Assembly (NCBI GenBank): GCA_022448165.1
Contig: JAKVAS010000015.1
Coordinates: 1-40,471, forward strand
From: Crocinitomicaceae bacterium
Lineage (GTDB): Bacteria; Bacteroidota; Bacteroidia; Flavobacteriales_D; Crocinitomicaceae
Length of the DNA stretch: 40,471 bases
Direction of reading: 5' to 3'
Below, one piece after another: positions 2,324 to 35,443 of this stretch (positions are counted from its first letter, which is position 1; each line of letters starts with the position of its first letter). The notes under the pieces are model-generated. The model saw only the letters and a list, made by a program, of their open reading frames with translations. It was not told the origin of the DNA and ran no database searches. A program made the position numbers and the translations under genes.

Positions 2324-5300
2324 TTAAAGATTACTTCTTATTTCCCAACCGAATAATCCATAAATCCAGTTTTTCAATTGATGTAAAAGAAGGTAAAGGG
2401 AAGGAATGATTACAAGTGTCAAGAAGGTTGCAAATGTTAATCCATAAATAATTGCCCAAGACATTGGGGCAAAGAATATGTTGTTGTCTCCTCCGAAATA
2501 TATTTTCGGATCATAGGTTGTCAATAGGCTTGAAAAGTCGATATTGAAACCAATAGCTAATGGAATTAATCCTAGAACAGTAGTAATTGCTGTTAATAGT
2601 ACCGGGCGTAATCTCGTTTTCCCACCCTCAATAGCTGCTTTAACAATTTCATCATATGGGAGTTGGTCATATTCGCCTAAGCCTAGCTCATCGCGCTTTT
2701 GCTTTCGTATTAGATTAGTATAGTCGATAAGTACAATTGCATTGTTTACTACTACACCTGCTAATGAAATGATTCCAATCATTGTCATCATAATAACGAA
2801 GCTTTGTCTTGAAATTAACAACCCGAGCAATACTCCAATTAATGAAAGTACAACCGTCAACATAATAATTGATGGTGTTGAGAATGAGTTAAATTGAGCA
2901 ACAATAATCAGAAGTATTAAGAACACCGCAATACCTAAAGCTTTGCTTAGGAATGCCATTTCTTTAGCTTGTTCTTCTTGTTGTCCAGAGAACTTGTAAT
3001 TGACTCCATTTTTAATTGTATTGGTTTCTTCATACAATTTCATTTTAGCTCTTAGTGTGTCAACGATCTCAGTTGGGTTTGATCCTTCCGTAACGTTTGA
3101 TGTTATTTGAACTAAAGGAATTTGATCTTTTCGAACAACTGCAGTATAGGATGTAACTTCTTTTGGATCTTCAATTACCGACTGGATAGGAATGTTTAGT
3201 AATTTCCCTTTGTTGTTTCTGAAAATTAAACGTTGATTTAGTAAAGCGTCTATACTTTCACGATTTTTCTTATTGAACTTTACTACGATATCGTAAGATT
3301 CATCACCTTTCGTATAGGTAGTAATGTCTTGTCCAAGTAAGGCCTTCCTAATTGCCATGCCAACTTGATAGGTCGAAGCATTTAATTTACGAATTTGATC
3401 GCGATCTACACGGATTGGAATTTCAGGTCGATCTGCTTCAACGTTAAGCTTGAGTTTTTCGACACCTTCTACGTGTAAGCCATCCAGATAGTTTTGGATT
3501 TTTTTCGCCTCAGAAATTAATTGACCATATTCTACTTTACCCGTGATATCCATGCTAATTGGAGCTCCTTGTGGCGGCCCCGCTGCATCTTTGGCAGCTG
3601 TAATTTCAATATCCGCATTAAACTCGCCTTGAAGCTTTTGTTGTATCTCTTTGAGAACCTGAGAACTAGTTACTCCATTTCTGTATTGAGATTCAACAAA
3701 GTTGACAGTAACACGGGCTTTATGAGGAGTGTTTCCCATGGTTACACCTTGTGCGGGATCACTAGTCCCTTCTCCAACTTGGGATATAATAGATTTGATT
3801 AAACGCCTGTCTTGAGGAAGCCCTGCTTTTTCATCTTTTTCTATGTATTCCTTTAATATATCATTGGTGAGAAGATCTTCGATCTCTTTTGTTGTTTCAT
3901 TGGTTACAGTGATATCTGTTCCAATCGGGTGGGAGATGAAAATATTCGCATAGTTTGGTTCGTTTACAGGGAAGAAGTCAATCTTAGGTGGGAATATAGA
4001 CATTGCCATGATTGAAAGGAACAACACAATAAATGTTCCTAAGAAGAAGACTAATGGTTTTTTCCCTTTTAAAGCAAAATTTAAGAATTTTTCATATCCT
4101 CTTTCTAAACGAGGAAGGAATCCATTTTGGAATTTCACAGTTCCAGGGTATAGTATAAACAAGTTAAGAAGACCAATAATTGCTATAACAATTAAAAAGT
4201 TTCCTAAGCCAATACCACCTAATATTAACATTATAACTCCGATTCCTGTAAGTACAATTGAATTTCGGATAACACGTTTTTTCTTTGGTTTGTTAGAGGT
4301 TACTTTCATGTAGGCAACGGCCAGTACAGGATTAATTACTAAGGCAACAAATAAGGAAGAACCCAATACAATGATTAACGTAATTGGTAAGTATTTCATA
4401 AATTCACCCATAATTCCAGGCCAGAATGCCAAAGGAATGAATGCTGCTAATGTAGTAGCAGTTGACGCTATAATTGGCATTGCAATTTCTCCTACACCAT
4501 CGATAACGGCTCTCGTAGAAGATTTACCTTCTGCCATATGTCTGTATATGTTTTCTACGGTTACAATTCCATTATCTACAAGCATTCCGAGAGCAAGTAC
4601 TAATGAGAAGAGCACCATTACATTCATGGTAACTCCCATTGAGTTTAGAATTAAGAAGGACATTAACATTGAGAGTGGAATAGCAACTCCCACGAAGAGC
4701 GCATTTCTTAACCCTAAGAAGAAAAGTAATACGCCTACAACGAGTATAATTCCGAAAATAATCGAGTTTAATAGATTCGAAACCATGTCTCTCGTATTGT
4801 TTGACTGATCGCTCGTTCTTGATACACTTACGCTTGAGGGAATTGTTCCGTCTAATGATGCTCTTTCAAGGATTTTAGTAATGCTGTCGGAAGCATCTAA
4901 TAAGTTTTCACCTCCTTGTTTTTTAATATCTAACATCACTACTGGTGATCCAAATTCTCGCGCGTATGAAGTTGTGTCTCCATTACCAAATTCTACATGT
5001 GCTACATCTTCTAGTTTGACAGGTAAAAAATCATCTTGTTTAATTATTATTTTTTTTAATTCTTCGGCATTTCTAAACTCACCATCGATACGAACGGTTT
5101 TTCTTACCCCATCTTCTAGAATTTCTCCTCCAGAGATTGTTTGATGTTCTGAATTTACCGCATTTTGAATATCTTCAATTGTAACGTTTACCGATTGAGC
5201 CCGGATAGGGTCTACTTCAATACGCATTTCTTGCGTTTGTGTACCGCGAATATCAACTTCACTGATTTGCGATAGGTCTTCAATTTGATCCTCGAGATTT

Positions 5301-5812
5301 TCAGCAATTTCTTTTAAAAGAGCAGGATTTTCTCCACGAAGATTGATATTCATGATTGGCATTTGCGATGGATCAAGCTCAAAAATATTTGGCTCTACCG
5401 GTAGTTGAGGGAAATCAGACTTCGCCCGAGCATCGTCAACAGCATCTTTAACTTTTTGAAGCGCTTTGTCTACTGACATCTTGAAGTCAAACTTAATACG
5501 AATAGTTGTGTACCCATGTACAGAGTTTGTGTTGATTTCGTCGACGAGCTTAATTCCTCCAATCTCTTTTTCAACAGATTTGGCAATTTTTTCTGACATA
5601 TATTGTGGAGAAGATCCAGGCTTAGCAATTCCAACATAAATTTCTGGAATCTGCAATTCTGGGAAATTCTCTTTAGGCATGGAGTTATAGGCTCCATATC
5701 CTCCGAGTAAAATGATTACTAAGATGAGGAATACCGTCTTTCTGTTGTTGACAGCAAGTGTTGATAGACCAAATCCGCTATTTTTATTTTCCATTATTGT
5801 TAAATTGGTCAA
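2324..5812 (-). CDS. RND-family efflux transporter permease (AcrB/MexB-like)
   Basis: 1162 aa; N-terminal TM, FPELQIPEIYVGIAKPGSSP, GMLVDNGIVTVENIYRHM, GVVVNNAIVLIDY, TTVLGLIPLAIG motifs typical of RND pumps. Confidence 0.95.
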   Translation of the reverse strand: MTNLTIMENKNSGFGLSTLAVNNRKTVFLILVIILLGGYGAYNSMPKENFPELQIPEIYVGIAKPGSSPQYMSEKIAKSVEKEIGGIKLVDEINTNSVHGYTTIRIKFDFKMSVDKALQKVKDAVDDARAKSDFPQLPVEPNIFELDPSQMPIMNINLRGENPALLKEIAENLEDQIEDLSQISEVDIRGTQTQEMRIEVDPIRAQSVNVTIEDIQNAVNSEHQTISGGEILEDGVRKTVRIDGEFRNAEELKKIIIKQDDFLPVKLEDVAHVEFGNGDTTSYAREFGSPVVMLDIKKQGGENLLDASDSITKILERASLDGTIPSSVSVSRTSDQSNNTRDMVSNLLNSIIFGIILVVGVLLFFLGLRNALFVGVAIPLSMLMSFLILNSMGVTMNVMVLFSLVLALGMLVDNGIVTVENIYRHMAEGKSSTRAVIDGVGEIAMPIIASTATTLAAFIPLAFWPGIMGEFMKYLPITLIIVLGSSLFVALVINPVLAVAYMKVTSNKPKKKRVIRNSIVLTGIGVIMLILGGIGLGNFLIVIAIIGLLNLFILYPGTVKFQNGFLPRLERGYEKFLNFALKGKKPLVFFLGTFIVLFLSIMAMSIFPPKIDFFPVNEPNYANIFISHPIGTDITVTNETTKEIEDLLTNDILKEYIEKDEKAGLPQDRRLIKSIISQVGEGTSDPAQGVTMGNTPHKARVTVNFVESQYRNGVTSSQVLKEIQQKLQGEFNADIEITAAKDAAGPPQGAPISMDITGKVEYGQLISEAKKIQNYLDGLHVEGVEKLKLNVEADRPEIPIRVDRDQIRKLNASTYQVGMAIRKALLGQDITTYTKGDESYDIVVKFNKKNRESIDALLNQRLIFRNNKGKLLNIPIQSVIEDPKEVTSYTAVVRKDQIPLVQITSNVTEGSNPTEIVDTLRAKMKLYEETNTIKNGVNYKFSGQQEEQAKEMAFLSKALGIAVFLILLIIVAQFNSFSTPSIIMLTVVLSLIGVLLGLLISRQSFVIMMTMIGIISLAGVVVNNAIVLIDYTNLIRKQKRDELGLGEYDQLPYDEIVKAAIEGGKTRLRPVLLTAITTVLGLIPLAIGFNIDFSSLLTTYDPKIYFGGDNNIFFAPMSWAIIYGLTFATFLTLVIIPSLYLLLHQLKNWIYGLFGWEIRSNL

Positions 5813-5813
5813 G

Positions 5814-6899
5814 TTATTTTTTTGTTCTTACGGTGTCTTTGTTCTTTATGCCTTTAGCACCAGCAACAACTACCTGCTCATTGTCTTTGACCTTTGGGTT
5901 GTCTTTGATCAATGCGGATCCGTCATACTTTTTAATTACCGTTACGTTAACACGTTCTACAGTGTATAGTTTTTTCTTTTTATCCTGAGAGTCAATTTCT
6001 GTTGCGATGTATAAGTAGTCGATATTATCTTGATCTTTAAGTATGCTTTTTGAAGGAACTACTGTTCCGTTTGGGACATCAAGATCAGTAATACTTACTT
6101 CGGCAAGCATATTGGGTAAAAAGAATGTATTGTTCTTAATTTTTGACATAATTCGGAACGTACGGTTTGTTGGTTCTATGTAATTACCCACATGCGTTAT
6201 TGCCAAGTTTACTGTGTCATCTGAAGAATATGGAAAAGTAACGGCTATTGGTGTTCCAATTTTTATTTTTGAAAAGTGCTTTTCAGATACAGTGGCAATG
6301 ATGTCAATGTTTGAGTTGTTTACTAAACGTACCAGTGGAGCTGCTGGACCAGCCATTTGTCCTTTTCGAGCAAATACCTGATCGATAGTTCCTGTAAATG
6401 GTGCGCGAATAGACGCTTTTCCTCGTTGTGTATTAAGAGAATTCATACTGGCCTTAAGACTGTTGACTTGATTTTTTGCTGTTTCTAAATCAAATTCAGA
6501 ACCAACACCTCGTTTCATTAGTTCTTCTTGCTTTCCAAGCATGTATTCAGCGTATTGAAGCTGAGTTTGCAGTTCTTGAACGTTAGATGTTAAAATAGAA
6601 GCGTCTACGTTGGCAATAACTTGACCTTTACGAACGATCTGTCCTTCTTTTACATTGATTGATGTTATCAAACCTCCCATCTCTGCGCTTAATGTAATGT
6701 CTTGATCTGTCTCAACATTACCTTGAACATTAATTTTGTGCGTGAATCTCGTTTGTTGAACAGGGGATAGCTCCACTAATGGCTCGAAAATTATTTTTTC
6801 TTCTTTTCCTGTATCCTTAGATGCGTCGCTTGAGCATGAGGCTGCTACCAATACTAGGCCTGCCATGAGCAAGAGATTTTTGATCTTTTTCGTTTTCAT
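5814..6899 (-). CDS. RND efflux periplasmic adaptor (membrane fusion) lipoprotein
   Basis: Listed ORF trimmed to MKTKKIKNLLLMAGLVLVAASCSSD lipoprotein signal; VTVSEK / ASIRAPFTGTIDQVFARKGQ biotinyl-lipoyl-like segment; sits between tolC and RND genes. Confidence 0.92.
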   Translation of the reverse strand: MKTKKIKNLLLMAGLVLVAASCSSDASKDTGKEEKIIFEPLVELSPVQQTRFTHKINVQGNVETDQDITLSAEMGGLITSINVKEGQIVRKGQVIANVDASILTSNVQELQTQLQYAEYMLGKQEELMKRGVGSEFDLETAKNQVNSLKASMNSLNTQRGKASIRAPFTGTIDQVFARKGQMAGPAAPLVRLVNNSNIDIIATVSEKHFSKIKIGTPIAVTFPYSSDDTVNLAITHVGNYIEPTNRTFRIMSKIKNNTFFLPNMLAEVSITDLDVPNGTVVPSKSILKDQDNIDYLYIATEIDSQDKKKKLYTVERVNVTVIKKYDGSALIKDNPKVKDNEQVVVAGAKGIKNKDTVRTKK

Positions 6900-6909
6900 T
6901 TTGTGCAAT

Positions 6910-8253
6910 TTATTCTGTTGGTAATAGTTTGTTGTAAATTTTATCGAGTGCCAATCTAGCTTGGAATACGTCCACAAGAGATCCTACATATTGGGCTTGT
7001 GCAACCATTAATTGGTTGTATTTTTGGGTAACAATAATGCTATTTCCTTCACCAATATCTTTTTTAGTGATGGCATTGTTGTAAATATTTCTTGCAAGAG
7101 AAATGTTTTCCTGCTGCAGTTTGAACTTACTCTGAGCGTTTGATAAATTGTTTTGAGCTTGAGCTGATTGAAATTTCAATGTCTGCTCCATTTGCTTAAC
7201 TGCATTTTGGTCTTGAAGTAGTTTAATACGTGACTGAGTTGTTACTGCATGTCTTGAAAGACCAGAGAAAATTGGAATGTTTAGTTTGAGTCCCCAGACA
7301 GTTTGTGCAAACCATTGTTTATCTTGAAAGAAATCAAACTCATTTCTATATGCATTATAGCTATGTTGAAAGAATGCATTTAATGATGGTAGATTTGCAA
7401 ATTCATTATTTCTTACGTTGTACTCAGAGAGCACCACTTGTTGTTCGAGTAGTTGGTACGTACGATTGTTTGTGATGTCTCCAGGAGTACTGAGTGTCGA
7501 TTGATTCATTAATTTTTCAGCGTTTTCGGAGATTGATAGTTGATTTTCCATAGGATAACCCATGGTCAATTTCAATGCACTTAGCGCATTTTCATATTGG
7601 ATTTTTGCTGACAATTGAGCATCTTTTGCCGTAAGTAAAGAATATGATAACTGATCCATATCCTCTTGTTGCATCAACCCTAGTTCTAGATAGTTTTTTT
7701 GCTTTTCTATGAGTTTTTCGGTGATGAGAACCATAGAATCAACGAATTGTTGATTTTCTTTTGCAACTGCTACCATCTCATAGGATTGAATTACATTGAA
7801 AATAACGTCTTCCTTTTCTATATTACTGGAAGAAGCTTGAAAACTCTTTAAATACTTTGCAACCTTTAATCCAATGATATAAGATCCATTGAATAATAAT
7901 TGTCCTACTTCTAATGATCCTGTAGCTGAGTATTCTGTTCCTGCGCGAAAGGAGATTAAATCACCAGGAGTTGCATTGGGGTTGAAAAATTGAGCGTCAA
8001 TTACTGAAACAGGAAGGTTTAAGAAGTTGTTGAAAGTTCCGTTTATCTGAACTTGGGGTAATCCCATGCCACGTACTTCGATGTATTTTTGATTCATTAC
8101 ATCAATTTCGTATTCAGAATTCTTTATTGTGAGACTGTTTTTGAGAGCGTACTCTTTTGCTTCTTGTAATGTGAAGCTGTTTTGCGACCATCCTGTTGCT
8201 GATAGAAACAGGATGGTTCCAAAAATAGTAACTAGCTTATTCATTGATTTCAT
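6910..8253 (-). CDS. TolC family outer-membrane efflux protein
   Basis: Signal peptide then FTLQEAKEYALKNSLTIKNSEYEIDV; coiled-coil rich; operon context. Confidence 0.93.
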   Translation of the reverse strand: MKSMNKLVTIFGTILFLSATGWSQNSFTLQEAKEYALKNSLTIKNSEYEIDVMNQKYIEVRGMGLPQVQINGTFNNFLNLPVSVIDAQFFNPNATPGDLISFRAGTEYSATGSLEVGQLLFNGSYIIGLKVAKYLKSFQASSSNIEKEDVIFNVIQSYEMVAVAKENQQFVDSMVLITEKLIEKQKNYLELGLMQQEDMDQLSYSLLTAKDAQLSAKIQYENALSALKLTMGYPMENQLSISENAEKLMNQSTLSTPGDITNNRTYQLLEQQVVLSEYNVRNNEFANLPSLNAFFQHSYNAYRNEFDFFQDKQWFAQTVWGLKLNIPIFSGLSRHAVTTQSRIKLLQDQNAVKQMEQTLKFQSAQAQNNLSNAQSKFKLQQENISLARNIYNNAITKKDIGEGNSIIVTQKYNQLMVAQAQYVGSLVDVFQARLALDKIYNKLLPTE

Positions 8254-13666: not shown

Positions 13667-13923
13667 GTCGTTAAAAATCCAAATTAAATGTTTTTCTAAG
13701 AGTATTTTTTGTTTCATAAAAGCTCAATGATTAATAATTTACATGTAAACAAGATACAGCGATTCTTTTTTTGAAATTTAAAAAAACCTTTATCTGTTGC
13801 TGGGATGTATTGAACGGGTGTGATTTTTTAATAATCGGGAATCACCTGAATAGTATTAGAAATAATAAAAACTTTAATGATAATATTAATCGTATCTTAG
13901 ATTTAAAACCTAAAGGAATATAT

Positions 13924-14700
13924 ATGAAATTGAGAGCTTTAATAGTTGATGATGAGGAGTTTGCACGTAAAAATCTAACAATGATGTTGGAGGAGTATTG
14001 CCCGGAAATTGAGGTGATAGGTGAAGCATCTCGAAAGGATCAGGCCAAAGCAATCATTGAATCATCAGATCCTGATGTTGTGTTTTTGGATATTCGAATG
14101 CCTTCTGGAGCAGAAGGATTTGAATTGTTGGATGAAATAGAAAATAAGAATTTCTTAGTTGTATTTGTAACAGCATTTAAAGATTATGCAATTCGTGCGT
14201 TTAACGCGAGTGCCGTTTATTATGTGTTGAAACCAATTGATATTGATGAATTGAAAATGGCAGTGGAACGTCTTGTAGAAACACAAACATCTTTCAAAGA
14301 AGAGCCTGAAAATTACAACACGTATTTTTCATCGTTGAAAGAGCTTTCAAACAACTTATTGCATAAAACGAATAGTAGTCGAATTGCCATTAGTCATACC
14401 AAAGGGTTAAAGATTGTTGAAGATGATACGATTACTCATCTTGAGGCTAGTGGTAATTGTACAACAATTTATTTTAATGATGGCTCAAGATATCTTGACA
14501 CGCGTACATTAAAGGTATATGAGAATTTATTGAATCCAAGAAAGTTTTGTCGAGTTCATAAATCGCACATAATTAATCTAAATATTTTGCAGGAGTATTT
14601 AAATGAGGATGGACATTTTGCCGTTCTTAAAGGTGGGATTCGTGTACCAGTTGCAAGAAATAGAGTTACTGAATTTGTTAGAATGCTAAAAGAACATTAG
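13924..14700 (+). CDS. LytTR family two-component response regulator
   Basis: MKLRALIVDDEEFARKNL, VFLDIRMP, FVTAFKDYAIRAF receiver; C-terminal LytTR (ITHLEASGNCTTIYFNDG...FCRVHKSHIINL); start trimmed from 13771. Confidence 0.94.
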   Translation: MKLRALIVDDEEFARKNLTMMLEEYCPEIEVIGEASRKDQAKAIIESSDPDVVFLDIRMPSGAEGFELLDEIENKNFLVVFVTAFKDYAIRAFNASAVYYVLKPIDIDELKMAVERLVETQTSFKEEPENYNTYFSSLKELSNNLLHKTNSSRIAISHTKGLKIVEDDTITHLEASGNCTTIYFNDGSRYLDTRTLKVYENLLNPRKFCRVHKSHIINLNILQEYLNEDGHFAVLKGGIRVPVARNRVTEFVRMLKEH

Positions 14701-17667
14701 ATGTTGAAAAAAACGTTGCTGCTACTGATAGGTTTGTTTGTTTATCAGTTATCATTTTCTCAAAAATATTCGTTTCAAACGTATAGTGCGGAAGATGGGG
14801 TGCCTCAAACTCAGGTGACTGACGTTGTGCAGGATAAAGATGGGTATCTTTGGGTTGGTACTTTCGGAGGTCTTGCAAAATTTAACGGTCGAGATTTTAC
14901 AACGTATTCGTCGTATGATGGCTTACTTAGTAACCGAATTACAAAACTTAAGTATATTAATGACGAATTGTGGGTGAGTCATGACGGTGGGATTTCTATT
15001 ATTAAGAATAACAAAATTGAAACAATCTCTTTTTTAGAAGGACAGGAGTCTTATGCCGTAGCAAGCTTCTTGGAGTTTAAAGGCAAAATTTATATTACAA
15101 CGAAAGGTGGTGGAATTTATAATGTTGAGAATCACAAGTTAATTGATTGTACCTATAATCATAAAGATACTACTAGGGCTTGGAGGATTCGTGCAGCTAC
15201 TGTTTCTGGAGACTCGATGTATTTAGCTACAAGGCACGGTATATTTTCAACAGGAGATATGAAGACCTTTAATCAGCATAAGGGGTTTGAAGAAGGGACC
15301 TTTTCGAGTGCAGTCTCAATGGGAGATACCCTTTATTTTTCTACGTTTAAACGTTTATTTCGATACCTGCCAAAAACGGGAGTTATAAAGGAGTTTTCTT
15401 CTGATCTGTTCAATGAGGCTACGATTGTAGATTGTAATATCGATCGAAAGGGGAATCTTTGGTTGATTACTACAACTGGCTTGATATCAGTTGATTCTAG
15501 TGATGATGTTCGTTTTTTGAACAGATCTTCAGGTTTGCCGTTTGGTAACTTGAATTGTATACATGAAGATCGTGAAGGTAATTTTTGGATTGGCTCAAAC
15601 GGTAAGGGGATGTTTCGATTTCCTGGAGAAACATTTAAGTACTTTGATCGATCTACGAATTATAAGAGTGATCTTTTCCTGACTGGGTTTCAGAAAAAAA
15701 ATGGTGATTTCTATTTTGGGACATTGGATGAAGGTATTTTAAAGAAGGGGAGGAATGGAGAGGTAAATGTTGTCTATTCTGATGAAGCGTGTATTTGGTC
15801 TTCTGTTAAAGATGTAGGCGGAAGAGACTGGTTTGGGACAATGTCGTCACTTGTCTCGATTGATAAAGAGGGGGAAATAGAGGTTCACCGAGTTTTCGGA
15901 GAGCATACATCAGCAAAGGTCGCAGGAATTTATCGCGTAAATGCTGATGAGATGTATATCGGTGGAGGACGTGGAGTGGTTCATTTTAAAAATGGGAAGT
16001 TTACTTTTTTAAATCAGAAAACAAGTGGGCACAAATTAGAAGATATTGGAACCGTTCGAGATTTTGTCTTAATTGAACAAGGTTTGGTTTGTGCTTCGAA
16101 TCTAGGCTTGTTTCTCTATAAGGATGGAAAATTCTCTCAATACAAGAACGTAGAAGAGTTTGTTTATTGTATAGAGATAGATGATGATGGAAATATTTGG
16201 TATGGAACTTCAAAGGGGATTTTTAGGTTGAAGAATGGTAAATCTGAGAGGTTTGACCTTTTACGTAGCCCTTCTGCAAATTATATTAACTTTTTAAATT
16301 ATCGAGATGATGAATTATTTATTGGGACCAATAATGGGTTGTTTATTTTTTCTGATTTAGATGCCATACAGCCTTCTATGAGACGCTACGGGCGTGATGA
16401 GGGAATTGTTGATCTTGAAACAAATATTTGTTCAGGATTCTTTGATTTAAATGGAGATTTTTGGTTCGGAACATCTTCTGGATTGGTTTGCTATAATAGA
16501 AGTAGTGAGGATGTATTGAATGTTACACCTAAAGTGCATTTGAAATATATCTTGATGAATTATCAACCTTTTGACTATTCAAAATATAGTGATTCGCTTG
16601 ATGATAGAGGTTTCCCTATTTGTTTGACATTCCCTTATTCAAAGAATAATTTAATATTTGAGTTAGAGGGGGTTTCAATGGCCAATCGTAAAAACTTGAA
16701 TTATCAGTTCTTTTTAGAGGGATTGAACGAAGATTGGTCTCCATTGACGCAAAACCCAACGATAACATTTACAAACCTTCCTGCTGGAGAATATAATCTC
16801 AGAATGCGAGCGGCGGATTTTGATGGAAGGGTTTCAATGGAGGTTGCTTATCCATTTACGATCAATCAAGCATTTTACAAAACTTGGTGGTTTATTGTGC
16901 TCTGTGGCTTGGCAGTTGTAGTAATTTCTTTATTGTATTTTCGACTTCGATTAAGGAGGTTGAATGATGCAAACGAAAAGGAAAAATTGGAATATCGTAC
17001 ACGTTTACTTTCGCTCGAGCAACAGTCGATGAATGCTAGTATGAATAGACATTTTGTCTTTAATTCGTTGAATTCAATTCAATACTTTATTAATACTCAG
17101 GACCGTATATCAGCGAATAAATACTTAACTAATTTTGCTAAACTGATTCGTAAGAATCTTGACTCGGCAACCGCTAATGGAAATGTTATTACTCTAGAAG
17201 AAGAACTTGAGCGCCTTCGGTTGTATTTATCTCTTGAATCCATGCGATTTAAGGATCGATTTGATTATTCTATTATGGTTGAGGATGGGATTGATGTAGA
17301 ATCGATTCAAATTCCTGCAATGTTGATGCAACCGTTTGTTGAAAACAGTATCATTCACGGAATTTTACCTAATGAAGAAAAGAAAGGGCAGATTGATATT
17401 CGAATTTCTTGGGAAAATGAACAGTTAATAGTCTCAGTTCGAGATAACGGAATAGGGGTTGATCAAAGTATATTACGTAAGCCTGGCATAGACGGAGATC
17501 ATCGTTCGAAAGGAATGGAGATCACTTCAAAACGAGTTGAATTGATACAAAAAATATCTAATGAGAACATATCATTAGAAGGGCCGTTCGAATTAAGAGA
17601 TGAAAACAGTTTAGTCAATGGAACATGCGTTTTACTCAAAATCCCATTAAATGACTTGGATATATAG
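14701..17667 (+). CDS. Two-component-regulator propeller / Y_Y_Y / TM / LytS-type histidine kinase
   Basis: Signal peptide; repeats such as DGYLWVGTFGGLAKFNG, NFWIGSNGKGMFRF; TM WWFIVLCGLAVVVISLLYF; HFVFNSLNSIQYFI H-box, PAMLMQPFVENSIIHGI and DNGIGV; starts directly after the RR stop. Confidence 0.95.
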   Translation: MLKKTLLLLIGLFVYQLSFSQKYSFQTYSAEDGVPQTQVTDVVQDKDGYLWVGTFGGLAKFNGRDFTTYSSYDGLLSNRITKLKYINDELWVSHDGGISIIKNNKIETISFLEGQESYAVASFLEFKGKIYITTKGGGIYNVENHKLIDCTYNHKDTTRAWRIRAATVSGDSMYLATRHGIFSTGDMKTFNQHKGFEEGTFSSAVSMGDTLYFSTFKRLFRYLPKTGVIKEFSSDLFNEATIVDCNIDRKGNLWLITTTGLISVDSSDDVRFLNRSSGLPFGNLNCIHEDREGNFWIGSNGKGMFRFPGETFKYFDRSTNYKSDLFLTGFQKKNGDFYFGTLDEGILKKGRNGEVNVVYSDEACIWSSVKDVGGRDWFGTMSSLVSIDKEGEIEVHRVFGEHTSAKVAGIYRVNADEMYIGGGRGVVHFKNGKFTFLNQKTSGHKLEDIGTVRDFVLIEQGLVCASNLGLFLYKDGKFSQYKNVEEFVYCIEIDDDGNIWYGTSKGIFRLKNGKSERFDLLRSPSANYINFLNYRDDELFIGTNNGLFIFSDLDAIQPSMRRYGRDEGIVDLETNICSGFFDLNGDFWFGTSSGLVCYNRSSEDVLNVTPKVHLKYILMNYQPFDYSKYSDSLDDRGFPICLTFPYSKNNLIFELEGVSMANRKNLNYQFFLEGLNEDWSPLTQNPTITFTNLPAGEYNLRMRAADFDGRVSMEVAYPFTINQAFYKTWWFIVLCGLAVVVISLLYFRLRLRRLNDANEKEKLEYRTRLLSLEQQSMNASMNRHFVFNSLNSIQYFINTQDRISANKYLTNFAKLIRKNLDSATANGNVITLEEELERLRLYLSLESMRFKDRFDYSIMVEDGIDVESIQIPAMLMQPFVENSIIHGILPNEEKKGQIDIRISWENEQLIVSVRDNGIGVDQSILRKPGIDGDHRSKGMEITSKRVELIQKISNENISLEGPFELRDENSLVNGTCVLLKIPLNDLDI

Positions 17668-29633: not shown

Positions 29634-32177
29634 GTGAAAGATTATATTCTAGTCATTATATTTTTTGTGCCGTATTTCTTGTTCGGGCAAGAGGTGAAAT
29701 TTGAAGTTTTTAACGAGAATTCAGGCTTGCCAAGTACTCAAGTCTATGATATCTATCAAGATGAAAACGGATATCTATGGTTTGCCAGTGATCGTGGAAT
29801 TGCCAGATATGATGGGTATAATTTCGAATCTTTTGGCTTGAAAGATGGGGTTCCCGCTAATACTGTGTTTAAATTTTACCCGCAAGAAAACGGTAATGTT
29901 TGGTGCTCTACCTTTAATAATCGATTTTTTTATTTCAATACAACAGACTACAACTTTACACCGTATAGATTCAATGATACATTGGTGAAATACGCATTAG
30001 ATGCTGTTGTCAATGACTTACAAGTACTTGAAAACGGTGAAATTCATATTTCTTATATTAGACCATTTAGTCAGTTAAGAATAGATGATTCAGGTAAGGT
30101 TCTTGAAAAAAGAGTTTCGGATTTATTCGATCACCAAGCCGTTATTGAAAGGTCTAAAAATGGAGAAATTTTTAACTATTATTTAGATCCATCAGATGAG
30201 TTAATTGCTCGGTCGGAAGGAGGTGAAATTTGCTCCACACAGAAAATCATTGGTTCATCATTTAAATCTCTTCAAATAGGTAAATACAGTGTTTTTAGTG
30301 ATGTGAAACAGGTATATATAAAGCTGGGTGATCGATTGGTTGGGTCAATCGATAACGGCTTGTCTCCGCTTAACATTGGTAAATATGACGATACACATTT
30401 CTGGATCGGTTATCGAGATGGTGGTTTAGAAGTAGTTGATTTGGACGGAAATATAACGGAAACATACTTATCGGAAGAGTCGATTACCTTTTTATTAAAG
30501 GATCATGAAAATGGGATATGGATATCGACGCTTTCATCTGGTGTATTCTATTGTAAACGACCAGAGGTAAGAATCCATCTGTGGGAAAATGAAAAATACG
30601 TTTATAATTTGGCGAGAGACGTGCATGATAGTTTGTGGGTTAGTTTATACAGCGGTTCTAATTATTCGTACAAAAATGGGAGGTATAAGATGCGTTATAC
30701 TTCCAGGGATAAGCAACCTACTCCCATCGATTTCGATCAAAAAAACAGCAAATTGGCAATTCACACGAACGGTACTTTGTTCATGAATCATCAATTGTTT
30801 TCGCGGTTAGATACATTGGCTTATTCAATGAGTTTTTCTGAGGATAAACTTCTGTTTACTACGCTTGTTGGATGGGCAGTAAACAATCAATCATCTATTG
30901 CCTTTTATGACTCAAAACAACGAATTAAGGATGTTGTGTTCGCTCCTAATGGATTTTATTTAGCAACCCACAGAGGATTGATCTTTTATGACACCGTATC
31001 TCATAGGCAAACAGCGATTGGTGGCACTTCATTGAAATGTAGGATTGAAGATATTGAAAAAGTAAAAGATCGTTACTTGTTCGGGACATTAGGGTCTGGT
31101 TTGGTTGTTAAAGATAGGGATTCGTTTGAATCAATTCTCAAAGAGAAAGGCTTGTATAGTAATAATGTTAATAAGCTCTACACCGAAAATGACTCAACCG
31201 TATGGGTTTGCACAAGTATGGGATTAAATCGAATTGAATTCCACGCAAATGGAGAATTTTCGGTTTCAGGGCTTTCAAAGAGTGATGGGTTGATTTACAA
31301 CAATATCACGGATGTTGAAGTGATTGGTGATACGGTGTGGGTAGGGACACGATCAGGATTATGTTCATTTCCTAAGCACTTAATGAACAAAACTCAATAT
31401 CAAAAGGATATTGAATATTATCTGCGATTTATTGGTTTTGAAGTGAAGGATAAAGAAACTTTATCTCGAAAATTAACTGCGTTAACATATGATCAGAATA
31501 AATTAACCTTTCGATTTAAAGCAATTTCTTTTCGAAATAGTTCGAACCTTGTTTATCGTTATAGAATACCTCAATTGGAGAATGAATGGAATTATACGTC
31601 AGAATTACATTGCACATATGCTAGTATTCCATTTGGAGATTATCAGTTGCAAGTTCAAGTCAGTTCAGATAAAGAAAAATGGAGCCCAGAAATTACCCAA
31701 GAATTTTCTATTGCCCCTCCGTTTTATAGGACTTGGTGGTTTCTCATTTTGATCATGTTGTTAGGTTTGGGAGCTATATATTTGTTCTTTAAGCTAAGAG
31801 TATTGGTCTATAATCGTGATGTTACACGGGAGCTCATTCGATTGCTCATACAAAAGTTGAAAAGGAAAGAAAAACTGATCCTATTCCGCGAACAAGGAAA
31901 AGATGTGAAGTTGAAATCCTCGGAAGTGCTTTATGTGAAGTCTTCCAATAATTACATTGAAATCTTCACAAAGGATAAAACACATGTGGTTCGTTTCAAA
32001 ATTAGTGAGTTTTTGAGTATGACACCTGACCCTCTTGAGTATCTCAGAATTCATCGTTCATATATCATTCGCATTGATAAAGTGAACTCAAAATCGGGTA
32101 AAAATATCGAAATTAACGATGTCAATATACCTGTTGGGAAGTCCTACACTGAACAATTGGATAAAATCCATTTTTAA
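29634..32177 (+). CDS. Membrane-anchored one-component regulator: propeller / Y_Y_Y / TM / LytTR DNA-binding domain
   Basis: Signal peptide, DENGYLWFASDRGIARYDG propeller repeats, TM WWFLILIMLLGLGAIYLFF, C-terminal LytTR (LKSSEVLYVKSSNNYIEIFTKDKTHVVRF...YLRIHRSYIIRIDKV); GTG start; no kinase or receiver domain. Confidence 0.93.
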   Translation: MKDYILVIIFFVPYFLFGQEVKFEVFNENSGLPSTQVYDIYQDENGYLWFASDRGIARYDGYNFESFGLKDGVPANTVFKFYPQENGNVWCSTFNNRFFYFNTTDYNFTPYRFNDTLVKYALDAVVNDLQVLENGEIHISYIRPFSQLRIDDSGKVLEKRVSDLFDHQAVIERSKNGEIFNYYLDPSDELIARSEGGEICSTQKIIGSSFKSLQIGKYSVFSDVKQVYIKLGDRLVGSIDNGLSPLNIGKYDDTHFWIGYRDGGLEVVDLDGNITETYLSEESITFLLKDHENGIWISTLSSGVFYCKRPEVRIHLWENEKYVYNLARDVHDSLWVSLYSGSNYSYKNGRYKMRYTSRDKQPTPIDFDQKNSKLAIHTNGTLFMNHQLFSRLDTLAYSMSFSEDKLLFTTLVGWAVNNQSSIAFYDSKQRIKDVVFAPNGFYLATHRGLIFYDTVSHRQTAIGGTSLKCRIEDIEKVKDRYLFGTLGSGLVVKDRDSFESILKEKGLYSNNVNKLYTENDSTVWVCTSMGLNRIEFHANGEFSVSGLSKSDGLIYNNITDVEVIGDTVWVGTRSGLCSFPKHLMNKTQYQKDIEYYLRFIGFEVKDKETLSRKLTALTYDQNKLTFRFKAISFRNSSNLVYRYRIPQLENEWNYTSELHCTYASIPFGDYQLQVQVSSDKEKWSPEITQEFSIAPPFYRTWWFLILIMLLGLGAIYLFFKLRVLVYNRDVTRELIRLLIQKLKRKEKLILFREQGKDVKLKSSEVLYVKSSNNYIEIFTKDKTHVVRFKISEFLSMTPDPLEYLRIHRSYIIRIDKVNSKSGKNIEINDVNIPVGKSYTEQLDKIHF

Positions 32178-32187
32178 GAAGTATTAT

Positions 32188-32216
32188 TTCGCACCTATTT
32201 CAAAGTTATTCGCACC
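32188..32216. promoter_or_regulatory. Candidate LytTR-box: direct repeat TTCGCACC x2, 21-bp period
   Basis: TTCGCACC at 32188-32195 and 32209-32216. Confidence 0.55.
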
Positions 32217-32298
32217 AAAGTGCTGTTTTAATTGATGTTGCTGGTTTTATTAAAAGGAGTTTTGCGCTCAGATAAATTTAACTAAACACAACACATTT

Positions 32299-34314
32299 AT
32301 GAAAAAAACACTTCTAGGAATGGCCTTTATGACTTGTAGTTTTATGGGCTTTTCACAAAATCTCGTTTTAAATCCTAGTTTTGAGGAGGGAGCAATTCCA
32401 ACAGAACAGGGGCAGGTTCATTTAGCGAATCATTGGACGTCCCATATTTCCAATCAATTTGACAATAATATTTTGGAAGTAGATTTACTGGATCGTGATG
32501 CAGCAAGTGCCATCCCATTGTTAAGTCTCCAGGTTCCATTAAATAGGTGGGGTGAATTAGAAACACAATATGGAGTTAATGGACAGGAAGAGGATGATCG
32601 ATATGCACATTTTTTTCAGCGGAAGGAATCTAGTATTAGTCCTCATCCTGATGCATGGACAAGAGAGATTTTAAAAGGAACGCTCGAAGATCCACTTGAA
32701 CCAGGATGCTATGATTTCTCCTTTTTAGCTGCAAGAACAGATTGGGTAATTTCCGCAGATGCCCACCAGCAAATAAAAGTATCTTTAGTATCGGGCAGTT
32801 CAGGTACTGGGTTAGAAATAATGACCACACCAATCATTGTCAACGCTGCGAACGGAAGCTTAGACTGGAATGAATTTTCTGCTTCAGTTACTATTCCAGC
32901 GAATAACACAGTAGTTTACGACCGAATTCTTTTTGAATTCGTTCAATATGATAATGTTCCAGGAGAAGTCATACAACATGCCTTTGTTGATCATGTTTCT
33001 CTTGAAAGAAAGGAAACGGATATTGTTATTTCGGGCAGCAACGTATTTTGCTCAGGTCAAGGAACCTTTTTGACTGTTCCGACGAATGACTATACTAATT
33101 ATCAATGGTTCTCAAGTACAAGTTCTCAACCTATTTCGAATCAGCATTGGATTTCAGTAAACACAGGGGGAATTTATACTGTAGAAGCATGGAACGACGG
33201 AGACATATGTCATGCTTCTAGTTCTATTGTGGTTACAGAAGCTTTGCTTCCAAGCATTGACGTTCCAGCGACCGTTAGTTTTTGTAATGGCAATTTTGCT
33301 CCATTGTGTGGACCAATGAATACGTCTGTTTATTCATATACCTATGCTTGGTATTTCAATTCTGGTCAAAATACGTCACTGATATCTAATGATCCATGTT
33401 ATACACCAGATCAATATGGAAACTATCAATTAGAAGTGACAAATCAATATGGATGTACTTCTATTCAGAATTTTGAGGTTGTCGAAGGTTCAGGCCCAGA
33501 AATTAATATTCCTAACTTATACTACGGATGTAAAACAAAAGGCCCTAAAACCGTTGGATTTCCTGGAGCGTTGTACAATGCAGCCTCTTATGCATGGACG
33601 TATAATGATGGATCGGGAGTCATTGATCTTCAACAAAATGGATACGAAGTCCCTTTTCAAGGAGACGGCGAGTATTGCGTATCAATTATTTGGGAGGATG
33701 CTGACAATCCCCTGGTTAATGGATGCCCTACAGTTTCCTGTTTTGAGGTGATGGAATGCTGCGAGCCTAACCCAGAATACAGCTCTTTAGAGTGGGATGT
33801 TGAGACAGGTTCAATCACTGTAACAAATTCCGCTGCGAATGCGGCTTACTACTCTTCTGAAGAGTATATTTTATATGAAAATTGTAACAACAATGGATGG
33901 GTGCAAGTTGATCAAATTACTTCTCCAGTCGGAACATTCTTGAATACAGTTGTTTTCAATGATTTAACGGAAGGCTGCTTATACAAAGTGACGCACAATG
34001 TTAAATCGGATTGTATGGGGATGATATTTTCTTATACAAAGCCTCCAGGGGGACTTAAGATTTCGATTTATCCAAACCCCGCAGTTCTTGGTAATGATGT
34101 AACGATAGAGATGACATCTCTTTCTGAAGCTGCAATTATGGAAGTGTATGATATGTTTACAGGAAAACTAATTTTCACATCAAGCTTGAAGCATGGAGCG
34201 CCAATTGAGATTGAAAACGCTGTATTCCCAAAAAGCGGAGCTGCTGGTGGTTTTTATCAAGTGAAAGTGTATAACAGCACAGAAAATATTTTTGAGAAAA
34301 TCATCGTTCGGTAA
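32299..34314 (+). CDS. Secreted protein with T9SS type A C-terminal sorting domain
   Basis: MKKTLLGMAFMTCSFMGFSQ signal; C-term ISIYPNPAVLGNDVTIEM...GGFYQVKVYNSTENIFEKIIVR. Confidence 0.88.
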   Translation: MKKTLLGMAFMTCSFMGFSQNLVLNPSFEEGAIPTEQGQVHLANHWTSHISNQFDNNILEVDLLDRDAASAIPLLSLQVPLNRWGELETQYGVNGQEEDDRYAHFFQRKESSISPHPDAWTREILKGTLEDPLEPGCYDFSFLAARTDWVISADAHQQIKVSLVSGSSGTGLEIMTTPIIVNAANGSLDWNEFSASVTIPANNTVVYDRILFEFVQYDNVPGEVIQHAFVDHVSLERKETDIVISGSNVFCSGQGTFLTVPTNDYTNYQWFSSTSSQPISNQHWISVNTGGIYTVEAWNDGDICHASSSIVVTEALLPSIDVPATVSFCNGNFAPLCGPMNTSVYSYTYAWYFNSGQNTSLISNDPCYTPDQYGNYQLEVTNQYGCTSIQNFEVVEGSGPEINIPNLYYGCKTKGPKTVGFPGALYNAASYAWTYNDGSGVIDLQQNGYEVPFQGDGEYCVSIIWEDADNPLVNGCPTVSCFEVMECCEPNPEYSSLEWDVETGSITVTNSAANAAYYSSEEYILYENCNNNGWVQVDQITSPVGTFLNTVVFNDLTEGCLYKVTHNVKSDCMGMIFSYTKPPGGLKISIYPNPAVLGNDVTIEMTSLSEAAIMEVYDMFTGKLIFTSSLKHGAPIEIENAVFPKSGAAGGFYQVKVYNSTENIFEKIIVR

Positions 34315-34340
34315 GAATTACCTAACCGTTGCTGAAAAAT

Positions 34341-34374
34341 AAAAGCTCTACTCTTGAAAAAGGGTAGGGCTTTT
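34341..34374 (+). terminator. Rho-independent terminator
   Basis: aaaagctctac...gtagggctttt hairpin just after the T9SS gene. Confidence 0.65.
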
Positions 34375-34428
34375 ACAGTTTTGGGTCTAACAATTGTTAC
34401 AGCTAAGGAGTGTGTACTAATTGTACTA

Positions 34429-34457
34429 TTCACAAACTCATTTGTGTATTTCGCAAA
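34429..34457. promoter_or_regulatory. Candidate LytTR-box: direct repeat TTCrCAAA x2, 21-bp period
   Basis: TTCACAAA at 34429-34436 and TTCGCAAA at 34450-34457; downstream AAAGTG..TTTAATT also shared with 32188 site. Confidence 0.55.
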
Positions 34458-34513: not shown

Positions 34514-35443
34514 ATGAAAAGAATATTACTAAGTACAATTGTGTTAATAGCATTTGGTTTTGGAACAAATGCTCAAAATGTAAACATTCCAGATGTTAAT
34601 TTTAAAAACTATTTGGTCACGAACTCTGCTATTAATACGAATTCTGATGCTGAGATTCAAGTAAGTGAGGCGAATGCTTTTGGTGGAACTATAGATTGTT
34701 CAAACTTGGGGGTTTCAGATTTAACTGGAATGGAGGCCTTTATCTCTGTTACGGCATTTTATTGTGAAAATAATGGACTTACTACAATGGATGTAACACA
34801 AAATGTTGCTCTAACTCAATTGATTATTGGAGGAAATAATCTAGCATCCATCGATGTAACACAAAATACAGCATTAACGTATTTGTATTGTCAGAACAAT
34901 AATCTGTCTTCATTGGATGTTTCACAAAACATTATTTTGGAATATTTATACTGCTTTAATAATTCACTATCTATTCTTAATCTTGCTGATCATACGGCGT
35001 TAGTTGAGTTAAATTGTGCAGGTAATGTTCCACTCTCAATGTTGAATATAGCCAATGGGAACAATATTAATTTGCCTTGGTTTGATGCAACAAGTTGCCC
35101 AAGTCTTACTTGTATTCAAGTTGATGATGTTGCGTGGAGTACAACAAATTGGTTAGGTATTGATGCGGGTACTAGTTTTTCAACGGATTGTGGATGGGGC
35201 CTTGGTATTGAGGGGCTAATTGAATCAATTGATTTTAAAATTTACCCAAATCCAACTTCAACCCAAATTACGCTTGAAACAATAGGAGAAATTGAAAAAG
35301 TCTTAGTTTTTAATACGGTTGGATTATTGGTGCAAACCGAATATTCTGAATCGTTTTCAGTTGAGAACTTACCGACTGGGGTTTATGTTGTTAACATTCG
35401 TACAAATGATGGGGTTTTTCTTAGCCGTTTTGTAAAAGAGTGA
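34514..35443 (+). CDS. Secreted leucine-rich-repeat-like protein with T9SS sorting domain
   Basis: Repeats TTMDVTQNVALTQLIIGGNNLASIDVTQNTALTYLYCQNNNLSSLDVSQNIILEYLYCFNNSLSIL; C-term FKIYPNPTSTQITLE...PTGVYVVNIRTNDGVFLSRFVKE. Confidence 0.9.
   Translation: MKRILLSTIVLIAFGFGTNAQNVNIPDVNFKNYLVTNSAINTNSDAEIQVSEANAFGGTIDCSNLGVSDLTGMEAFISVTAFYCENNGLTTMDVTQNVALTQLIIGGNNLASIDVTQNTALTYLYCQNNNLSSLDVSQNIILEYLYCFNNSLSILNLADHTALVELNCAGNVPLSMLNIANGNNINLPWFDATSCPSLTCIQVDDVAWSTTNWLGIDAGTSFSTDCGWGLGIEGLIESIDFKIYPNPTSTQITLETIGEIEKVLVFNTVGLLVQTEYSESFSVENLPTGVYVVNIRTNDGVFLSRFVKE

Follow-up and report, generated by a model that had tools for sequence, protein, structure and literature searches.

In the 40,471-nucleotide stretch of Crocinitomicaceae DNA analysed here (the window), a membrane-tethered LytTR regulator, a pair of direct repeats just behind its gene (operator A) and the T9SS cargo gene that follows very likely form a private regulator-operator-cargo module, which less certainly includes a second repeat pair (candidate operator B) and the next T9SS gene, 34514. 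The preliminary description of this DNA had proposed such a local regulon, in which the membrane regulator acts on adjacent T9SS cargo through paired repeats. The proposal is supported by the conservation of repeat pairs with a 21/22-bp period in relatives, by their phase to the -7 promoter element, by covariation of the half-site with a LytTR loop residue and by the TIGR04183 matches of the cargo proteins; taken site by site, the support is strong for site A and gene 32299 and only moderate for site B and gene 34514.

Domain organization of the membrane regulator

The regulator gene and its DNA-binding domain are placed as follows.

29634-32177, + strand: one-component membrane regulator of 847 aa with a GTG start, comprising a signal peptide, a periplasmic sensor of a double beta-propeller (Reg_prop) and Y_Y_Y, a membrane helix and a LytTR domain
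31905-32165, + strand: LytTR DNA-binding domain (PF04397), residues ~748-842, with the covarying loop residue N772 (SSNNY) and the motif YLRIHRS

The Reg_prop, Y_Y_Y and LytTR matches of the 847-aa protein all exceeded their Pfam cut-offs, with 40.9 bits for LytTR (PF04397) against a cut-off of 22.6, and the same search found no kinase, receiver or AraC-type domain. As expected of a TTR, one membrane helix (~701-726) and a DNA-binding domain thus reside in a single chain that lacks both kinase and receiver. In the AlphaFold2 model (mean pLDDT 81.5), the propellers are accompanied by a beta-sandwich, the helix at 701-726 and a linker helix, and the C-terminal domain is mainly beta. The top Foldseek matches were the periplasmic sensor domains of BT4663 and BT3049, with PorZ of the T9SS as a weaker structural match. 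In the alignment, YLRIHRS fits the FhRhHRS signature, in which the R, N (R/N) and S residues are involved in the DNA interaction of AgrA (PMC4227749). When the PDB was searched with a profile of the LytTR domain, the outcome was a weak match to 3d6w, whose annotation reads DNA response regulator; a single-sequence PDB search yielded only spurious designed repeats and was discarded.

Elsewhere in the window, a REC-LytTR protein (13771-14700) adjoins a propeller-Y_Y_Y histidine kinase (14701-17667), which represents a split, two-gene form of the circuit. Judged by this pair, the 847-aa propeller-LytTR fusion looks like a shortened form of the two-gene circuit.

Predicted cargo genes and the intergenic hairpin

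Two genes with export and sorting signals follow the regulator, separated by a hairpin.

32299-34314, + strand: secreted 671-aa protein with a C-terminal T9SS type A sorting domain (TIGR04183, 30.7 bits; cut-off 23), likely target of operator A
34340-34375, + strand: terminator-like hairpin between the two cargo genes, with 16-nt arms and a weak T tail
34514-35443, + strand: secreted 309-aa leucine-rich-repeat protein (LRR_4) with a T9SS type A sorting domain (TIGR04183, 40.5 bits; cut-off 23; Por_Secre_tail), possible target of operator B

Both genes are predicted to encode T9SS cargo, with TIGR04183 scores above NCBI's cut-off of 23. The Por_Secre_tail match of the 671-aa protein (24.4 bits) is slightly under Pfam's 27, and no paralogues of this protein were found in its own genome. 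The segment 34330-34390 folds at -25.5 kcal/mol (z -6.8), and the hairpin within it was not listed by the terminator scan. Because of this strong hairpin between the cargo genes, 34514 probably has its own promoter.

Paired repeats in the window

Each of the two cargo genes is preceded by a pair of 8-bp repeats.

32188-32195, + strand: operator A half-site 1, TTCGCACC, beginning 11 bp past the last base of the regulator gene
32209-32216, + strand: operator A half-site 2, TTCGCACC, 21 bp from half-site 1 and followed by AAA, as in relatives
34429-34436, + strand: candidate operator B half-site 1, TTCACAAA
34450-34457, + strand: candidate operator B half-site 2, TTCGCAAA, 21 bp from half-site 1, with no -7-like element at the family distance

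The sequence places all four half-sites where the preliminary description had put them, with start-to-start distances of exactly 21 bp and a 13-bp spacer in both pairs; the half-sites are identical at site A and 7/8 alike at site B. The genome-wide scan suggested there for TTCRCAMM-N13-TTCRCAMM was run on the assembly (3.39 Mb, 306 contigs, 86.5% complete) and returned 2 exact matches, both in the window, and 0 in the reversed control. When up to two mismatches were allowed, the whole assembly contained 102 matches versus 128 in the control, and this lack of excess rules out a wider regulon at the TTCRCAMM consensus. Because that pattern was written after the sites had been seen, we also applied a motif-free shuffle test to the two intergenic regions (121 and 199 bp). 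Four 8-mers as alike as these half-sites at one common offset appeared in 3 of 600 shuffles with any offset from 10 to 40, and in 1 of 600 with offset 21/22 only. The matching flanks described earlier (AAAGTG...TTTAATT) are literally there, but their alignment requires a gap of several bases. The flanking features conserved in relatives, AAA after half-site 2 and a T-rich segment at +18 to +20, are kept at site A and absent at site B, and the latter is overlapped by an inverted repeat, ATTCACAAA-4-TTTGTGTAT, at 34428-34449. Judged from sequence comparisons, site A is very likely the operator of the 29634-32177 regulator with 32299 as its target gene; site B is a plausible operator for 34514, with a weaker case than that for site A.

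Homologous regulator loci

Full-length homologues of the regulator, with 27-38% identity, occur in relatives, and the named genomes that carry them include Kordia, Flavobacterium, Aquimarina and Lacinutrix. The collection was scanned with a 7-row alignment; a 16-row alignment proved too diverged as a query. Identical 8-mer pairs flanking the homologous regulators had an offset of 21 bp in 8 of 40 loci (1.3 expected) and of 22 bp in 11 (0.4 expected), and no other offset from 11 to 49 stood out in these loci. The family consensus is TTCRTCAC-N13/14-TTCRTCAC-AAA with an often TATTTTATAGGG-like spacer, and the sites lie mostly within ~110 bp past the regulator end or in the divergent region preceding the regulator. 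A matrix partly seeded from these loci (a seeding that does not affect the exact-repeat offset test) detected paired TTCRYCAC-like sites in 32 of 42 family loci, a set that includes two other regulators of the window's own genome, when the threshold was set at the 99th percentile of 1213 control windows; about one-quarter of the family loci have no such site, and several (L107, L115, L121, and L138) have at least two. In the 26 family-bearing genome entries, TTCRYCAC-N13/14-TTCRYCAC gave 37 matches versus 1 in the reversed control, or 33 once a duplicated assembly is removed (G004 and G146 are identical). Site A scores 12.4 bits with the family matrix, slightly under the 13.2-bit control cut-off, as a diverged copy; it fits the family module in position, period, promoter phase and exported next gene, and its half-site has diverged.

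A T9SS-sorted gene adjoins the regulator in 23 of the 40 loci, compared with 4.0% of other nearby genes, and by a simple rule 33 of 41 genes next after a site have a signal-peptide-like start. The conserved cargo thus appears to be an exported protein, often though not always of the T9SS type.

Several loci showed further arrangements. Two Kordia loci (L110 and L114) have the paired site followed by a gene for a peptide of 61-70 aa with a double-glycine-type leader (MKKKNLKSLTLTRKTISNLHEVLKGGA..., MKNQQFTTLDKEFTLQILGGIT...), resembling a RiPP or bacteriocin precursor, and at L114 three to four half-sites stand in tandem. In Kordia aestuariivivens (L221, 5190-7371), a 270-aa LytTR protein with N-terminal hydrophobic segments is followed by an TTCACCAC/TTCGCCAC pair and an exported 416-aa protein. 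Genomes G159 and G163 contain family sites far from any regulator (L212-L218) that lie ahead of exported-protein genes, and several of these sites have TATGTTTG in the same phase; some regulators may therefore have distant targets.

Position of the sites relative to the promoter

The motif TAnnTTTG, which spans -12 to -5, serves the housekeeping sigma factor of Bacteroidota as its -7 element, and core promoters of this phylum consist of -33/-7 elements (PMC6847099). When 50 sites were aligned on half-site 2, T-rich segments appeared at +18 to +20 and +28 to +30, and TAnnTTTG at +47/48. After matches within coding sequence (L225, L226, L229, and L230) had been left out, 20 of 46 sites had a TAnnTTTG that began at +47/48, counted from half-site 2, and all other bins between +10 and +64 were empty. 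The half-sites would therefore lie near -60 and -81. One such element is predicted behind site A.

32257-32264, + strand: predicted -7 element, GAGTTTTG, which departs from TAnnTTTG at one position and starts at +48 relative to half-site 2 of site A

It places the predicted transcription start of 32299 at ~32269, 30 nt ahead of the start codon. At site B the nearest -7-like elements, TAAATTTC at +28 and ACCTTTTG at +39, are off the family distance. A sigma-70-type promoter scan gave chance-level matches only, as expected for Bacteroidota.

A search of 393 genomes of the order for the pair with the phased -7 element alone returned 7 matches in 6 genomes and 0 in the control. Five of the six genomes carry strong regulator homologues. 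The sixth, G394, had not been tied to the family before. At its locus (L242; contig C39, 426-3237), the gene of a 209-aa LytTR protein without a propeller is followed by the site 33 bp downstream and then by the gene of a 633-aa protein with a T9SS-type ending; thus, the DNA logic is kept there though the sensor differs.

Covariation of the half-site with a LytTR loop residue

A residue in the loop between two strands of the LytTR domain (position 772 of the window regulator, SSNNY) tracks the half-site variant in 30 of 30 regulators. Every one of the 23 regulators that have one or more TCAC half-sites carries glycine at this position, and none of the 7 others does. The other residues comprise asparagine in the window regulator, with TTCGCACC; aspartate, with TTCGCCAC; and arginine, serine and lysine, with CCC/ACC types. 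On a tree built without the LytTR domain, the loop residue changed in at least three independent instances, all concordant with the half-site, although three independent pairs are too few for sign-test significance and the site classes were defined after inspection. The covariation is thus a strong lead, rather than proof, that this residue determines specificity.

Tentatively, and at not far short of an even chance, we propose that Flavobacteriales possess insulated private switches, namely, paralogous membrane LytTR regulators, each assigned a half-site variant and an exported cargo of its own and separated by a one-residue loop code (Gly with TTCRTCAC, Asn with TTCGCACC, and Arg/Lys/Ser with CCC/ACC), alongside control of the PorXY-SigP type. 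If so, surface proteins would be chosen singly by outside signals, and PorXY-SigP type control would act on the T9SS machine. The natural covariation of loop residue with half-site also provides a starting point for working out the code by which LytTR domains recognize DNA.

Proposed mechanism and alternative explanations

Known LytTR sites are pairs of 9-bp repeats with a spacing of 10-13 bp that lie mostly upstream of the -35 element and activate (PMC11347149; cf. PMC6193735). Site A agrees with this description, being a direct-repeat pair with a spacing in the 10-13 bp range upstream of the predicted promoter. In the mechanism that we favour, the periplasmic double propeller and Y_Y_Y would sense an external signal, which would alter the sensor dimer such that the LytTR domains pair on the two half-sites. 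This cytoplasmic LytTR pair would occupy the same helical face at the two 8-bp direct repeats with their 21-bp period. Operator A precedes the predicted start of 32299 by ~60-81 bp, a location ahead of the promoter that suits an activator, and most likely would switch on 32299; operator B may, less certainly, do the same for 34514. Binding to operator A could also repress 32299, much as CoxC, itself a membrane one-component LytTR repressor, does at its target (PMC11347149), and the signal would then relieve repression. We consider this unlikely, since the CoxC operator overlaps the -35 box, whereas the pair here lies at about -60 to -81 in fixed phase, and since activation from upstream of -35 is the rule among LytTR-type regulators (PMC11347149). 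Still less probable is that another LytTR protein of the genome binds the repeats and the neighbouring regulator acts elsewhere. The genome has 25 LytTR matches, and similar sites adjoin the propeller-less LytTR proteins of L221 and L242, so that the core motif occurs with more than one architecture. However, the sites adjoin family regulators across many genomes, the half-site variant tracks the loop residue of the adjacent regulator, and 21 other LytTR genes examined in the genome have no excess of 21/22-bp repeats, which rules out a generic LytTR explanation.

That the repeat at site A is a coincidence or part of the core promoter, with no regulator involved, is very improbable: although its score falls slightly under the family-matrix control cut-off, the site matches the family in its position after the stop codon, its 21-bp period, the AAA after half-site 2 and the -7 element at +48, and the -33/-7 elements of Bacteroidota core promoters (PMC6847099) do not include a 21-bp repeat at -60/-81. 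For site B, there is a considerable, though clearly less than even, chance that the pair resembles site A by coincidence or serves as operator for a different protein, one that recognizes ATTCACAAA-4-TTTGTGTAT, rather than for this regulator. The overlapping inverted repeat, the lack of a -7 element at the family distance and the further divergence of the half-sites from the family consensus point in this direction. Conversely, site B is the sole other genome-wide match to the site A pattern and precedes the next T9SS gene, shuffles seldom yield such a pair of pairs, and more than one site is present at several homologous loci as well. Operation of the module through operator A, with a possible contribution of operator B, remains our preferred reading.

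Comparison with known regulatory systems

Like the window regulator, RcoM and CoxC combine a sensor and LytTR in one protein, and the RcoM1 repeats (TTCNNGCA) resemble those in the window as 8-bp direct repeats starting with TTC/TT and separated by spacers of 12-13 bp (PMC11347149). RcoM and CoxC differ in having three repeats, CO sensing, cox genes and a proteobacterial host, whereas the window combines an HTCS-like propeller sensor with two repeats, cargo that is exported and a promoter of the Bacteroidota type. The LRS systems (HdrRM and BrsRM) likewise feature a LytTR regulator, membrane control and direct repeats that lie close to promoters on the upstream side and have spacers of 11-13 bp (PMC6193735). 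There, however, the membrane inhibitor is encoded by a separate gene and the regulator activates its own operon, whereas here one protein unites sensor and regulator, the operator in most cases lies ahead of the cargo gene, and the genes downstream of the regulator encode T9SS-sorted secreted proteins rather than a membrane inhibitor. The HTCS BT4663 shares the periplasmic double propeller and Y_Y_Y with the window regulator but proceeds through a histidine kinase, a receiver and an AraC-type output, whereas LytTR directly follows the membrane helix here. The AlgR core box CCGTTCGTC contains TTCGTC (PMC4064291), as does the family half-site TTCGTCAC; AlgR is a response regulator with scattered single boxes in Pseudomonas, and we do not claim common descent of the boxes.

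According to the portions of the TTR survey consulted, TTRs resemble the window regulator as one-component proteins that act from the inner membrane, and Y_Y_Y is among the domains listed for them; the LytTR-propeller family, its operators and T9SS cargo do not appear in these portions (PMC10269533). The PorX/PorY/SigP system also ties transcriptional control to the T9SS (PMC4800418), but as a two-component system and sigma factor acting on T9SS components, whereas here single cargo genes appear to be under dedicated one-component regulators. Membrane one-component regulators with Y_Y_Y (according to the same portions of PMC10269533) and LytTR repeat pairs were thus already known. Our literature searches for TTCGTCAC or for LytTR control of T9SS cargo found no description of this system; as far as these searches reach, what is new is the propeller-LytTR family, the fixed phase of its operator to the Bacteroidota promoter and the pairing of the family with individual cargo proteins that are exported. 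While known T9SS control through PorX/PorY/SigP acts on the secretion machine, the predicted operator concerns the choice of cargo and would tie individual outside signals to individual surface proteins via a membrane-bound one-component regulator. The predicted operator, with its mapped promoter position, is also present in cultured species, among them Flavobacterium terrae and Kordia.

Related units elsewhere in the genome

The family consensus, learned from other genomes, matched exactly two sites in the window's own genome, each following another family regulator.

C130, 316-345: site 27 bp past the stop of a LytTR fragment and ahead of a secreted protein of >900 aa
C190, 1933-1961: site following a regulator paralogue with 34% identity

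Together with the window, these make at least three regulator-site units in the genome, with differing half-sites. At the second locus (L105; C190, 1933-2222), the site is followed by no ORF of 60 aa or more, and a hairpin with a T run lies ~230 nt beyond it; the site may therefore be followed by a small RNA gene or by a gene that has decayed. The start of contig C130 (L233, 1-130) consists of GGAAATTTCCTGG-like repeats fused to the LytTR frame, probably an assembly break in a repeat. On the - strand of the window, 2324-8253 holds an RND efflux operon encoding an AcrB-type pump, an HlyD-type adaptor and an outer membrane factor.
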